Below are positions 1-3,846 of a DNA stretch of 64,000 nt, piece by piece. Under the pieces are notes generated by a model. The model had not been told where the DNA came from, made no database searches, and saw only the letters and a program-made list of their open reading frames with translations. The stretch comes from Marinobacter sp. es.048 (GTDB taxonomy: Bacteria; Pseudomonadota; Gammaproteobacteria; Pseudomonadales; Oleiphilaceae). The DNA is taken from the NCBI RefSeq assembly GCF_900188435.1, contig NZ_FYFA01000001.1, positions 1,054,001 through 1,118,000 on the forward strand, in the 5' to 3' direction. The position numbers and the translations under genes are program-made. Positions within the stretch are counted from its first letter, which is position 1. Every line of letters starts with the position of its first letter.

Positions 1-147
1 CTGTCGGGAAATGTTGTCACAGGCGATAACAGTATTTCCGACAACGCGTTCGGCAATATGAGCGGGGTTGCCACGGTTATCCAGAACACCGGCAACCAGG
101 TGGTCATTCAGGACAGTACCCAGATCAACATACTGATCAATCACTGA
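1..147 (+). CDS. Partial secreted N/Q/G-rich repeat-type protein (C-terminal end)
   Basis: Only the last 48 codons are present; the gene enters from outside the window and ends with TGA at 145-147. The tail is rich in Gly, Asn, Gln, Ser and Val and contains short beta-strand-like units such as TVIQNTGNQVVIQ. That unit aligns with the C-terminal part of the protein at 858-1352 (TVIQN...VIQ...Q.NI), so the two look like paralogues on either side of the C39 peptidase gene, which starts 12 nt downstream. The composition resembles secreted amyloid or curlin-like subunits, but this is inference from a fragment and no named family was recognised. Confidence 0.75.
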   Translation: MSGNVVTGDNSISDNAFGNMSGVATVIQNTGNQVVIQDSTQINILINH

Positions 148-159
148 CGGAGGTGGGCC

Positions 160-852
160 ATGACCACGAGGGTTCTTGTTGCAGTCTGCGCGAGCACTGG
201 TCTGTTGTGGTCCACCGCCTTTGCCGGCTCGGTCATGTTGCCGGGCATTGGCGGTGATGTTCGGGTAAACGTTACCAGTTTTGAGAACCGCCGGTTTGAG
301 ACTGTGATGCGACAGCAATACGACTTCAGTTGCGGCTCCGCAGCGATTGCTTCCTTGTTGTCCTTCCACTACCAGGACCAGGTGACAGAGCACGATGTCT
401 TCGTTGAAATGTTCGCCCTGGCGGACGAGCAGAAAGTGCGACAGGACGGCTTCTCCATGCTTGATATGAAGCGCTATCTGGAGGCCAGAGGCTATCAGGC
501 CGACGGTTTCCGCATGCCGCTGAGCGGCCTGAAGGAGAAAGTGCGCCTACCCATGATTGTATTGTTGAACATTGATGGCTTCCGGCATTTTGTCCTGATC
601 AAAGGGATCAGTGACGATGAGGTCCTGGTGGGGGATCCGGCGCGGGGGTTGAAGGTTTATTCCTACTCAAAATTCAGCGAGTACTGGAACGGTACCGCCT
701 TTATTATTCGCAGTCATCTTGAACAGGGTCGGGGCGGATTTCTCGGCGAGGGACAGTGGCCGCAAGTGGCCAGGGCGCCGGTACAGAATGGCTTGAGTGG
801 TCCTTCGCTCGGGCACACATTGCCTTACTGGCCCTCTACAAGGGAATGGTGA
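160..852 (+). CDS. Secreted C39-family cysteine peptidase (FapD-like)
   Basis: A 230-residue protein with a signal peptide (residues 1-22, ending STAFA) followed by a single papain-like C39 peptidase domain. The C39 motif QQYDFSCGSAA places the oxyanion Gln at about 52-53 and the catalytic Cys at 58. His143 (GFRHFVLIKG) and Asp159 (VGDPARG) complete the triad. No ABC or membrane domain is fused, unlike bacteriocin-exporting C39 proteins, so it probably acts in the periplasm. It lies between two N/Q-rich secreted proteins with gaps of 12 and 5 nt, which implies one operon. The same arrangement of a stand-alone C39 peptidase beside amyloid subunits is known from FapD in the Pseudomonas fap operon. 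A role in processing or licensing export of the neighbours is inferred. Confidence 0.85.
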   Translation: MTTRVLVAVCASTGLLWSTAFAGSVMLPGIGGDVRVNVTSFENRRFETVMRQQYDFSCGSAAIASLLSFHYQDQVTEHDVFVEMFALADEQKVRQDGFSMLDMKRYLEARGYQADGFRMPLSGLKEKVRLPMIVLLNIDGFRHFVLIKGISDDEVLVGDPARGLKVYSYSKFSEYWNGTAFIIRSHLEQGRGGFLGEGQWPQVARAPVQNGLSGPSLGHTLPYWPSTREW

Positions 853-857
853 TAATC

Positions 858-1352
858 ATGATGCCCCGGATGTCAGCCATAGCGTTACTGGTTGTTTCAT
901 TTGCAGCGGTGTCGCCATCGGTCCAGGCAGAGCTGACGCTTGGTGTTGCACCACTGAGTGATCCGGAACTGTCTGAATATCGGGGTGGTTTCCTGATGGA
1001 TAATCTGGAGATCAGTATCGGTCTGGAGCAGGTTGTCGGTATTAACGGTGACACCCTGGTGGTCAATCGTCTGACCATTCCCAATCTCAACCAGGCGGTC
1101 AACGGCGGTCTGGTGGACCACCAAATGGACACCGTACTCGAAGTAATCAGCGCGAACCGCAGTGGCGGTGCGCGGGTAGCCAGCAAGATGGCGGGGCCTA
1201 ACGGCTGGATGACGGTGATTCAGAATAACCTCGATAGCACTGTGATACAGAATATGAACCAGCTGAACATTGAGTTGAACAATCTGGGTGTCGCCGGGAA
1301 CCAGTTCCCGGCAAGGTTCAGTGATCAGTTGATCCAGTTGCTTGGTCGCTGA
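858..1352 (+). CDS. Secreted beta-rich N/Q-containing protein, paralogue of the upstream gene
   Basis: The start is set at ATG 858, 5 nt after the peptidase stop, because it follows a purine-rich AAGGGA and gives a clean signal peptide (MMPRMSAIALLVVSFAAVSPSVQA). An in-frame ATG at 756 would overlap the peptidase gene and bury the signal. The mature protein is about 140 residues. It holds a short LSDPELSEYRGGF segment, a region of alternating hydrophobic and Asn/Gly residues, and a C-terminal block TVIQNNLDSTVIQNMNQLNI that matches the tail of the gene ending at 147 (11 of 20 positions identical). No named domain was recognised. It may be a minor subunit or nucleator of a surface fibre. Confidence 0.75.
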   Translation: MMPRMSAIALLVVSFAAVSPSVQAELTLGVAPLSDPELSEYRGGFLMDNLEISIGLEQVVGINGDTLVVNRLTIPNLNQAVNGGLVDHQMDTVLEVISANRSGGARVASKMAGPNGWMTVIQNNLDSTVIQNMNQLNIELNNLGVAGNQFPARFSDQLIQLLGR

Positions 1353-1371
1353 TAACCCCGTCGGGCCCTGC

Positions 1372-2451
1372 CTAGAGGCTGATGGGAAGCTTGAGCGTGA
1401 TCTCGCTGTTCGGGGCGTTTTCCGTAACCCCGATACTCACCGTAAGGTTCAGCGATGTGGACTGCGACAGACGCTGGGACAGGCCGAAGGATAGCGACCC
1501 GATCTGGATACGGTCGAAATTGGATTCAAAAAGATCAACGTTCCTCTCGAATGTGGTTTTTCGGATGATCGAGTGATCATAGCCCAGGCTGAAGGACGTC
1601 CGGTCGTTAAACGCAAACCCCATCCCGAAGCCAAAACGCACGATGTCGCCGGGATCGACTGTGCCTCCATTATCAAAGCCTTGCTCCTCTTTCAGGGTCC
1701 AGACATAGCTCAGGTTGCCGAACAGCACGGCCGGGTCGGTCGGGTAGATGAATGAGAGTCCGGGTTCGAATGCCCAGAAACCGGACCCCGTCGGCCGGCT
1801 TTCCAGCTCGATGCCAATCGGATTGCCCTGATTATCCTCGATGACCCTCTGGTCAACGTCGTAGGGACCCTCGCCGGTGGGCGCTCTCACTCGCAGCGCA
1901 CCAATCACGTAGGGCCAGCCACCCAGGCCATCGGTTAACTGATAGCGAGCTGAAACCTCAACATCACCGAGACCCTCTCCAGAGGATTCACGCAGAGTAT
2001 CCACCGGTGTGCCCTGGAAAACCTCGCGCTCTCTCAGGTCCTCATTGATGCTGAGGTAGGGAACTCGCACCGCCGCCTCGAGCTTGCTGGTGATCCCGTA
2101 TTTCAGTGACATGGCGCCGACGAAGATATCGCGCTGGATCTCCGAAATGTTGATCAGCCCGATCAGCAGGGCAGGGATCACTGTGTAGCCTTCTATCGCG
2201 ACCGCCGTCGAGTTGCTGTGAGCATGGGAAAAAGACGGTTCAATAGTGAAGCGGCCGGGTCGGGTCACTATGCCACGGTCTGCGGTTATAGAGGCAATGT
2301 CGGTCGCCGGATCGTGACTATCTTCCGGCGTTGTCCGGATGTCGGCGCTGGCAGTGGTCTGTTCAGCCTGTCTTTCGGCTTCGGTGGCGATTGCCGGCAT
2401 CGGTTGTGTCAGAGAGATCAAGGGGAAGACCCAAAGGATTCTTGCTGTCAT
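1372..2451 (-). CDS. Putative outer-membrane beta-barrel protein (phenol-degradation meta-operon transporter-like)
   Basis: A 359-residue protein with a signal peptide ending near residue 22 (PMPAIA) and a polar linker of roughly 40 residues. After that come repeated amphipathic strands with glycine and aromatic girdles (FTIEPSFSHAHS, GLGDVEVSARYQL, FWAFEPGLSFIYP, FRIQIGSLSFGL-like segments). This pattern fits the outer-membrane barrel family PF13557. The start has a strong ribosome site (GAAGGAGATTCACC before ATG). It is convergent with the secreted-protein operon and sits 12 nt downstream of the VpsR-like regulator on the same strand, so the two are probably co-transcribed. It could be the pore for the fibre subunits, analogous to FapF, although the FapF coiled-coil plug is not evident. 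Confidence 0.6.
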   Translation of the reverse strand: MTARILWVFPLISLTQPMPAIATEAERQAEQTTASADIRTTPEDSHDPATDIASITADRGIVTRPGRFTIEPSFSHAHSNSTAVAIEGYTVIPALLIGLINISEIQRDIFVGAMSLKYGITSKLEAAVRVPYLSINEDLREREVFQGTPVDTLRESSGEGLGDVEVSARYQLTDGLGGWPYVIGALRVRAPTGEGPYDVDQRVIEDNQGNPIGIELESRPTGSGFWAFEPGLSFIYPTDPAVLFGNLSYVWTLKEEQGFDNGGTVDPGDIVRFGFGMGFAFNDRTSFSLGYDHSIIRKTTFERNVDLFESNFDRIQIGSLSFGLSQRLSQSTSLNLTVSIGVTENAPNSEITLKLPISL

Positions 2452-2463
2452 GGTGAATCTCCT

Positions 2464-3846
2464 TCAGTTGTTTTTTGGCGGCCGCGACGGGGCGCCGTGC
2501 GGAAGCTGGTGTTTTTCCATCAGCCGGTAGAGCGAGACCCGTGAAATCCTCAGTAGTCTTGCAGCAGCCGACACGTTGTTGTGTGCAAGTGCGAGACTGA
2601 TCGAAATGGCCTGACGATCCGCGCGTGAACGAAATGCGTCGAGGGAAAGCTCGGTACTTCGCTTCTGGCTGTCGGCGGGTGCAACAGCGAAGCCCATATC
2701 CCCCGGTTCAATCGAGCGGCCTTCACCCAGCAGGAGCGCCTGCCGAAGACGGTTCTGTAGTTCTCTGAGGTTGCCCGGCCAGGGGTGTTGAGCAAGGCAG
2801 ACAAGGGCGCTATCGCTGAGATGCCGGGCTCCATTCATTGAAGGCGTTGTTGAGAGAAGCCGCTTGGCCAGTACCGGGATGTCTTCCCGCCGCTCCCGGA
2901 GTGGTGGTAAAAACACTCGCAGGCTGCCAAGCCGGTAAAACACATCGCTTCGGAAGCCGCCGGCTTCCACCAGCTCCTCCAGGGGCCGTGTGCAGGTTGC
3001 TATCAGTCGGACATCAACGGCAATGGCGTGATTGGCCCCCAGGCGCTCGATCACGCCCTCCTGAAGGAAGCGCAGGATGGCTGATTGCTGTTCTGCGGAA
3101 AGTTCATCGATGCCGATCAGAAGCAGGGTGCCGCCGTTGGCAGCTTCGATTCTGCCTTTGTGGGCACTCAGAGCATGGGTGAAAGCGCCTTTCTCGTGGC
3201 CAAAGAGTTCATTCTGGGTCAGTGCGCGGGGCAGGGCTGCACAGTTCACGACGATCAGCGAATTGTTGTGTCGGGGAGAATGCTGATGAATGAATCTGGC
3301 GGCCGCCTCCTTGCCGGTGCCGTTCTCTCCGTAAACAAGAACCGGTTCTTCCGTGAGCGCGAACTTCTGCAGTAGTCTCCTGACGTCCTGAATGGCCTGG
3401 GACTCTCCTTCAAGGGCAAAGTTGTGATAGCAGCCGGGTTTGTCGGAGAAGGCCCTCGATTGCAGCTCGGACATTCCCCAAAGATGCCCCAGGATGGCGT
3501 GCAGCCGGTCGTCGTCGAGGGGGTGGGTATGGTAGTCCTTGCAGAAGCGATTGATCAGCCCGCAGATCTCGGCGCTGTGAATGTGTTGCGGCTTCAGGAC
3601 AGCGACCCATTCCTTTACCGGGAGGTTGCCCAGCCAGTCGGGCAGGTGGGCAAGTTGATCGCCCTCAAGCGAAGAAACATCGAACACCCCGACGCGAGCC
3701 TCTGGGCATTCCCTGGGCTTCGGCCCTTTGCCGGGCTGGCCAGCAAGACCCACATGATAAATCTGCCAGTCCCTCAGCAAGGGACTGCTGGCAGAAAACA
3801 ACGGGTACACCGCCGACAACCAAACGAGCGGTCGTTTCTCCTTCAT
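2464..3846 (-). CDS. VpsR-like AAA+ regulator with degenerate sigma-54 activator motifs
   Basis: A 460-residue enhancer-binding-protein relative. Residues 1-130 look like a receiver lacking a clear phosphoacceptor pocket, as in VpsR. An AAA+ domain spans about 145-380 with Walker A GENGTGKE (173-180), the arginine-finger stretch RSDVFYRLGSLRV, and LPPLRER. A Fis-type helix-turn-helix ends the protein (SAAARLLRISRVSLYRLMEK). Two key motifs are changed. The sigma-54 contact loop GAFTGA reads GAFTHA (220-225), and the Walker B acidic pair is Ile-Gly at 244-245 (LLLIGIDEL in place of LFLDEIGDL). ATP hydrolysis and sigma-54 activation are therefore doubtful. VpsR of Vibrio, which likewise departs from sigma-54 activators and responds to c-di-GMP, is the closest known model. 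It probably controls the adjacent fibre-like genes. Confidence 0.85.
   Translation of the reverse strand: MKEKRPLVWLSAVYPLFSASSPLLRDWQIYHVGLAGQPGKGPKPRECPEARVGVFDVSSLEGDQLAHLPDWLGNLPVKEWVAVLKPQHIHSAEICGLINRFCKDYHTHPLDDDRLHAILGHLWGMSELQSRAFSDKPGCYHNFALEGESQAIQDVRRLLQKFALTEEPVLVYGENGTGKEAAARFIHQHSPRHNNSLIVVNCAALPRALTQNELFGHEKGAFTHALSAHKGRIEAANGGTLLLIGIDELSAEQQSAILRFLQEGVIERLGANHAIAVDVRLIATCTRPLEELVEAGGFRSDVFYRLGSLRVFLPPLRERREDIPVLAKRLLSTTPSMNGARHLSDSALVCLAQHPWPGNLRELQNRLRQALLLGEGRSIEPGDMGFAVAPADSQKRSTELSLDAFRSRADRQAISISLALAHNNVSAAARLLRISRVSLYRLMEKHQLPHGAPSRPPKNN

Follow-up and report, generated by a model that had tools for sequence, protein, structure and literature searches.

A probable divergent branch of the Fap system in Marinobacter, with a predicted second leader on the proteins flanking its C39 peptidase

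Gene content of the locus

We examined a six-gene Marinobacter secretion locus that reaches into the start of a 64,000-nucleotide stretch of the Marinobacter sp. es.048 genome (the window; contig 1 positions 1054001-1118000 of a 4.06-Mb genome in two contigs). The block begins about 1.2 kb upstream of the window's first base, and this upstream part is given in coordinates of a fetched stretch, L002, where the window position is the L002 position minus 9000. From isocitrate lyase onward, the genes are a secreted candidate subunit of 302 amino acids (aa), rich in Ser, Asp and Asn as a (Ser-Asp-Asn)n-type protein (L002 7834-8742, outside the window); a secreted 116-aa protein, placed by gene calls and family alignment (L002 8797-9147, forward strand); a C39 peptidase (160..852, forward strand); and a secreted 164-aa protein in the FapE position (858..1352, forward strand), with a possible GTG start at 849 that overlaps the peptidase stop. 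The 116-aa gene begins 204 bases before the window; its first 68 codons lie outside, and its 3' end occupies window 1..147. On the opposite strand are a 359-aa outer-membrane barrel (1372..2451), convergent with the secretion operon, and a 460-aa activator (2464..3846). The operon-like spacing reported in a first-pass annotation holds, with 12 bases separating the peptidase from the preceding gene, the next gene following after 5 bases or with a GTGA-type overlap, and 12 bases between activator and barrel.

That annotation had described a five-gene block unlike fap and had inferred a fibre or surface-protein system related to Fap yet distinct from it. Its observations were confirmed in part and its interpretation is partly supported: the neighbourhood is conserved and the barrel and activator genes are present, but the block has six genes, extending outside the window. 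Neither outcome that the annotation had set as refuting came about, as the upstream gene matched no known family significantly and the block, far from being a chance arrangement, recurs in other genomes.

Relatives of FapD, FapF and FapE

The peptidase carries a signal peptide and matches Pfam Peptidase_C39 above the cut-off (1.7e-19). Its catalytic residues Cys58 (codon at 331-333), His143 (586-588) and Asp159 (634-636), together with the oxyanion Gln52, are invariant across 22 aligned relatives, which bears out the earlier call of a stand-alone C39 enzyme with signal peptide and triad. The best NCBIfam match of this Sec-exported enzyme is FapD (2.2e-44, 151 bits; curated cut-off 330).

The barrel likewise has FapF as its best NCBIfam match (2e-44, 152 bits; curated cut-off 700), and its residues 43-357 align to FapF crystal chains (5o67) at 5.1e-34. 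In its AlphaFold model (mean predicted local distance difference test score, pLDDT, 78), FapF chains make up the top 18 fold matches (E 7.1e-21, template modelling score 0.83 on the target). Pfam assigns the protein to Phenol_MetA_deg, above the cut-off, and the next fold match is the COG4313 channel 4rl8, as might befit a MetA/COG4313-type channel for small-molecule uptake that lies here by chance. The FapF structures are far ahead of that channel (E 6.7e-10), however, and a related barrel is encoded within 5 kb of 83 of the 98 scored peptidase genes (out of 117 peptidase loci, with a tandem copy in L034 and the L038/L097 repeat included). This explanation is extremely improbable, and the ordinary MetA-type uptake barrel was rejected because of the fold ranking.

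For the 164-aa protein the best NCBIfam match, a weak one, is FapE (E 0.0019, 17 bits, cut-off 250), over residues 3-54 of the 162-aa form. None of the three secreted proteins has a Pfam match above the cut-off, and a DASH_Dad1 match of 17 bits (cut-off 31) to the FapE-like protein was taken as chance. With three best family matches in Fap and FapF as the nearest barrel structures, the description of the block as unlike fap is not supported. The Fil system of Acinetobacter (FilB, a C39 peptidase; FilC, a barrel) comes second to Fap for both secretion parts, at 105 bits against a cut-off of 475 for FilB and 56 against 630 for FilC. Membership of Fil was rejected, both scores being far under the cut-offs and no other fil family matching in the block.

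A proposed second leader on both neighbours of the peptidase

The 164-aa protein contains, directly behind its signal peptide, a proposed second leader, LSDPELSEYRGG (954..989, forward strand), with the C39 cut predicted after the second Gly and before Phe. Among relatives, the leader was sought as [LMIVAT]x4[LMI]x3RG[GRK] in the first 200 residues, after a hydrophobic signal-like stretch. It is present in 96 of 110 downstream neighbours of the peptidase (open reading frames, ORFs, from 115 non-identical loci, 5 of which gave no such ORF); for background, the pattern occurs in 36 of the 2372 remaining six-frame ORFs with at least 150 aa in these loci. By this pattern, residue -1 is Gly in 86 proteins, Arg in 7 and Lys in 3. 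Anchoring 96 windows on RG[GRK] alone gives the consensus L-S-D-x-E-L-x-x-L-R-G-G-F, with L/I/M/V in 83% at -12, 95% at -7 and 62% at -4; the -1 counts shift slightly with the anchoring, to Gly 82, Arg 11 and Lys 3. Double-glycine leaders follow the consensus LSxxELxxIxGG, hydrophobic at -12, -7 and -4 and with Gly-Gly at -2/-1, and the block leader agrees with this spacing.

The upstream neighbour of the peptidase carries the leader in a looser form, MSADQLADSSGR in the 116-aa protein (outside the window) and present in 83 of 96 upstream small proteins (90-170 aa). Counts of this loose form in the other proteins were 4 among 106 subunit candidates, 7 among 117 peptidases, 6 among 81 activators and 17 among 110 barrels. 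The strict form was counted in 30 of the 96 upstream proteins and in 5 of the 110 barrels, and in none of the subunits, peptidases or activators (0/106, 0/117 and 0/81). By both sets of counts, the leader thus distinguishes the peptidase's two neighbours from the subunit.

The spacing of the pattern was reset after the alignments had been read, and the pattern is therefore fitted to the data. A first version with other spacing was found in none of 74 downstream genes, in 3 of 91 upstream ones and in 17 of 687 others. Re-anchoring on RG[GRK] alone and the counts in other proteins of the same loci serve as checks on the fitted pattern. In addition, where downstream ORFs overlapped, the choice was made with a model derived from Marinobacter sequences, leader included; it selected 81 of the 110 ORFs (77 with the leader), and the 29 chosen by length alone include 19 with it. 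The 14 misses were kept in the count of 96 of 110. Four have an RGGF leader past residue 200 of long or fused ORFs (L110, L118, L131, L133), three read RAGF (L113, L124, L144) and one RGAGF (L138). No clear leader was seen in the ORFs read for L115, L123, L127, L139, L147 and L164, which may be in the wrong frame. Among the relatives listed for the two small proteins (120 of 264 and 120 of 166), those with a source name are called 'hypothetical' or bear stray automatic names.

A leader of this spacing, and nearest solved peptidase structures that are bacteriocin-exporter domains, would also be expected if the small proteins were bacteriocin- or signal-type peptides released by the C39 enzyme, with no fibre involved. 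Export of double-glycine peptides by C39-ATP-binding cassette (ABC) transporters indeed shares the leader spacing and the peptidase family with the block. The block differs in having a free, Sec-exported peptidase, for which the cut is predicted in the periplasm, and no ABC exporter domain was found by Pfam among its six proteins. The Sec signal peptides, the FapF-type barrel, the subunit candidate that adjoins the peptidase in 106 of 117 loci, and the FapB-like Q/N motif common to the 116-aa family and the subunit all speak against the peptide explanation, which we consider highly unlikely.

In another locus, L049 (5430-10541), a third C39-barrel type is accompanied by three secreted proteins that begin LxxxxLxxITA[AGS] after the signal peptide. 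To judge from its sequence, this start looks like another variant of the same leader.

A C-terminal motif resembling the last FapB repeat

Across loci, the candidate subunit consists of a signal peptide, a low-complexity Ser/Asp/Asn/Gly/Thr arm and, mostly, one C-terminal motif such as GVSVISQNNGFSSLIQQSVNVQSN. The 302-aa upstream gene has no significant family match in Pfam or NCBIfam. The 116-aa and FapE-like proteins end in Q/N motifs at window 64-144 and at 1203..1290 (GWMTVIQNNLDSTVIQNMNQLNIELNNL and following), respectively, both on the forward strand. These two proteins had been read as secreted paralogues rich in N/Q repeats. Their relationship stands over the C-terminal motif (hhalign), but each has a single Q/N motif, and a strong repeat array is found only in the upstream subunit gene, outside the window.

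Comparison of whole C-termini by hhalign matched the subunit with the 116-aa family (P 4.3e-7) and with the last FapB repeat (P 8.9e-5), and the 116-aa family with FapB (P 9.3e-5) and with the FapE-like C-terminal motif (P 1.2e-6; 1.4e-9 with motif-picked pieces). Reversed controls for the last pair gave 0.34 and 0.18, and those of the whole-C-terminus set ranged from 0.34 to 0.69. For scale, the known relatives FapB and FapC match at P 1.5e-8 with motif-picked pieces. The subunit and the 116-aa protein thus appear to share, at their C-termini, a motif similar to the final FapB repeat, and the 164-aa protein is apparently tied to the FapB-like motif through the 116-aa protein only. We infer one shared cross-beta unit. 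The earlier remark that the subunits lack recognised Fap or curlin repeats agrees with the profile searches, but at the profile-profile level the FapB-like motif emerges in the C-termini of the subunit and the 116-aa protein.

Some relatives have a different subunit architecture. Subunits without a long Ser/Asp/Asn arm are encoded in L054 (4393-5304) and by two genes of L055 (2558-3463 and 5958-6944); four copies of a GISQVQQNNGNNNAMQQ-type motif were counted in the L054 gene and in the first L055 gene.

The mature 302-aa subunit is strongly acidic (56 Asp/Glu against 6 Lys/Arg) and dominated by Asp, Asn and Ser, and the arms of relatives differ freely in length and sequence. Such features would suit a soluble or hydrated coat or an adhesin, in which the arm does the work and the motif is an anchor, rather than an amyloid. 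Yet the conserved part, on reading the relatives, is the C-terminal motif, which matches the repeat of an amyloid subunit, and the four-copy proteins of L054 and L055 also argue against a mere anchor. We regard a non-amyloid coat as unlikely.

Curli (csg) shares the idea of a secreted fibre with a Q/N motif, and one 116-aa relative is named 'Curlin associated repea...' in UniRef. Curli membership was rejected, as neither a curlin repeat nor a CsgG match was found in the six block proteins or in nine proteins of relatives.

Two peptidase clades and classical Fap

In a tree of 121 peptidases, built without an outgroup and without the RG[RK] locus L062, a single long branch separates the 16 enzymes beside RG[RK] proteins from the 86 beside RGG proteins (SH-like support 1.0, ultrafast bootstrap, UFBoot, 100). 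The 19 loci without a readable leader grouped with the RGG-type peptidases.

Four loci of the same order, taken by inference for Pseudomonas, encode a FapE that passes the NCBIfam cut-off of 250 bits with 336-348, and it starts F[K/R]PIELKD[Q/A]E[L/M]AxLRG[R/K]Y just after the signal peptide. An RGR leader of the same kind is found where the subunit scores as FapC (L067, 212 bits, cut-off 195; L065, 181 bits, just below). None of the 15 proteins obtained in a search with FapE relatives is named FapE. Published work on Fap reports that the catalytic Cys of FapD is required for FapC export; the target of FapD 'remains unclear' there, the Fap proteins are said to lack canonical C39 sequences, FapE is noted to have GG/GA motifs and proposed as possibly processed, and its first ~70 residues were unseen by mass spectrometry (PMC5557850).

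The block shares with Pseudomonas fapABCDEF a C39 peptidase, a FapE-like protein with a leader ending in RG, a FapF barrel, an adjoining RpoN-type activator, a -24/-12-like element and a Q/N motif related to the last FapB repeat. It could on these grounds be an ordinary fap operon that has drifted until profile models miss its subunits, the mechanism being the same; the very similar leader in FapE over the cut-off fits this as well. The block differs, however, in several respects. Its peptidase belongs to the separate, fully supported group, and its FapE-like protein is about 100 aa shorter and has RGG in place of RG[RK]. The subunits have mostly one C-terminal motif with a Ser-Asp-Asn arm, as opposed to three spaced repeats, and do not match the FapB or FapC models. 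There is an extra 116-aa leader-bearing protein and no FapA, the barrel model has no coiled coil, and the barrel gene is convergent with the operon. Simple drift of a standard operon seems rather unlikely to us, and we favour a divergent branch of Fap.

Activator and promoter element

The activator has a VpsR domain (39 bits, cut-off 23.7), Sigma54_activat (187 bits, likewise above the cut-off), an AAA+ core and HTH_8 by Pfam, and its best NCBIfam matches are general sigma-54 activators. Activators of the BrfA/VpsR type share these domains, and the reverse orientation beside the operon is that reported for brfA. The fapA gene of P. fluorescens PF07 is preceded by an RpoN promoter, and fap expression needs the adjoining reverse gene brfA (PMC9207406); BrfA, the fap activator, is reported as a sensor of cyclic di-GMP (c-di-GMP) (PMC13101488). 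By position and domain type, the activator of the block is the putative BrfA counterpart, and its VpsR domain makes it a candidate c-di-GMP sensor.

Of 29 Marinobacter block loci, 28 have a -24/-12-like element, TGGCA[C/T]-N5-TCGC[A/T], at 78-126 bases upstream of the start of the subunit gene; leaving out the L038/L097 repeat of one genome makes this 27 of 28, and a scripted count by subunit gene gave 26 of 30. In this genome it reads TGGCACGGGAATCGCT (L002 7723-7738, outside the window). The pattern is not clearly enriched genome-wide (see Discussion), and the promoter claim therefore rests on conserved position.

Marinobacter activators have a GAFT[H/S/N]A loop (with one GSFTHA and one GSFTSA), as against GAFTGA in most other clades, and Marinobacter promoters have TCGC. 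Among 14 loci with a GA/GSFTGA loop and a site, the corresponding bases are TTGC in 11, CTGC in 2 and CCGC in 1; the site was not found in most GAFTGA loci. Two Aestuariicella loci combine GAFTNA with CTGC. It is possible that the activator loop and the -12 element changed as a pair, and the Marinobacter pairing, belonging to one clade, may therefore be a single event.

Conservation and distribution

A close peptidase orthologue (at least 59% identity) is present in 69 of 120 same-genus genomes, the own genome included. The same block was found in 15 of 20 fetched regions, each with isocitrate lyase in the region; four others contain other C39-barrel types and one is the second C39-barrel pair of the own genome. 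Gene calling hid some block parts in the fetched regions; L041 showed no intact barrel ORF, and the activators of L037 and L043 were fragmented.

In a barrel search of 274 genomes of the class, matches were obtained in 31, and 20 loci were annotated. In a scan of named genomes, the best 80 loci of a longer list come from Marinobacter (top relatives with 84% and 83% peptidase identity), Aestuariicella, Ectothiorhodospira, Methylobacter, Halomonas, Massilia, Variovorax, Nitrosomonas, Sphingomonas, Brevundimonas, Photobacterium, Vibrio superstes and Geotalea. A VpsR-type activator lies within 7 kb of 65 of the 98 scored peptidase genes. No match to anti-phage defence was found with PADLOC for three proteins.

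The four-gene unit of subunit, small protein, C39 peptidase and FapE-like protein is doubled in tandem in one of the 15 blocks, L034 (2987-8369). Between the copies the small and FapE-like proteins look identical and the peptidases similar, with differences in the arms of the subunits. The own genome's second pair, a C39 peptidase of 279 aa and a barrel of 336 aa (L033 6230-8133; contig 1 2207230-2209133), is followed by proteins of 555 and 352 aa, and the orthologue search showed a C39 enzyme of this more distant type in many same-genus genomes.

Discussion

We interpret the locus as probably a divergent Fap branch that exports and assembles a cell-surface fibre. The earlier proposal of a related but distinct fibre or surface system under c-di-GMP-type control was a good one in this respect, considering the relatives of FapD, FapE and FapF, the conserved block and the BrfA-like position of the activator. 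A fuller account, to which we give about even chances, is that the locus represents a second, widespread Fap branch in Alpha-, Beta- and Gammaproteobacteria and relatives of Geobacter. In it, a periplasmic C39 peptidase would process two Sec-exported proteins through true double-glycine-type leaders, and the enzyme would have diverged together with the residue before the cut (Gly here, Arg/Lys in classical Fap). The fibre would be composed of single-layer subunits with a long disordered arm, and the same leader would identify FapE as a FapD substrate in Pseudomonas.

Under the reading as a divergent Fap branch, all secreted parts would pass the inner membrane by Sec, and the periplasmic enzyme would cut both flanking proteins at the second leader; the cut would follow Gly-Gly in the FapE-like protein and Gly-Arg in the 116-aa protein. 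Cleavage would free the Q/N motif and license export through the barrel, with a parallel in the FapD activity needed for FapC export. Outside the cell, each subunit may add one cross-beta layer to a stack by way of its single C-terminal motif; its long acidic Ser-Asp-Asn arm would form a hydrophilic halo around the fibre, and the cleaved small proteins would nucleate or cap it. RpoN and an activator of c-di-GMP-responsive type would turn the locus on in biofilm growth.

Several results weigh against a fibre-forming Fap branch. The NCBIfam Fap scores of the secretion parts are all under the curated cut-offs, no FapA was found by NCBIfam in the block, and the subunit has no NCBIfam match to FapB or FapC. 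There is no match between the subunit motif and FapC (P 0.046 with motif-picked pieces, 0.007 with whole C-termini), and the FapE-like protein has no direct match to the subunit motif (P 0.023 motif-picked, 0.14 whole) or to FapB (P 0.31, motif-picked). The seven FapB sequences in both hhalign runs had themselves been selected with a FapB-like pattern. For the FapE-like protein, structure prediction gave a low-confidence model (pLDDT 57) that was not used. No coiled coil or plug helix, which FapF needs for export, was seen in the N-terminal 58 residues of the barrel in the monomer model, in which residues 15-58 are disordered and which would not reliably show a trimeric coil; on reading, the N-termini of the L060 and L061 barrels are rich in Q/E and look coil-like. 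A cut of the FapE leader at about residue 40 leaves part of the ~70-residue mass-spectrometry gap unexplained. In the activator, GAFTHA replaces GAFTGA, and the promoter pattern shows no clear enrichment genome-wide, with 7 occurrences of TGGCAC-N5-TCGCW against 4 for the reversed-pattern control and 2 of TGGCAC-N5-TTGCW against 4.

The existence of a wider family is already known: two earlier studies report fapD-fapF neighbours in five more phyla (PMC6173800) and FapD and FapF as likely part of larger families (PMC3792158). In the portions of the open-licence PMC literature available, no account was found of this locus in Marinobacter, of a double-glycine-type FapE leader or of the RGG branch. 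The predicted second leader on the proteins at both sides of the peptidase appears to be new here.

On sequence grounds, the locus would be a real, distinct branch of Fap, not a system unlike it. A survey of GTDB required the known FapB/C repeat and would probably miss such loci; Fap-type systems are therefore probably more widespread than counted (PMC12392863). The activity of FapD is essential for export of the Fap amyloid (PMC5557850), and the leader suggests what a FapD-type peptidase acts on and offers an exact cut site to test. Gly as opposed to Arg/Lys at that site may be a specificity switch between the two enzyme clades.

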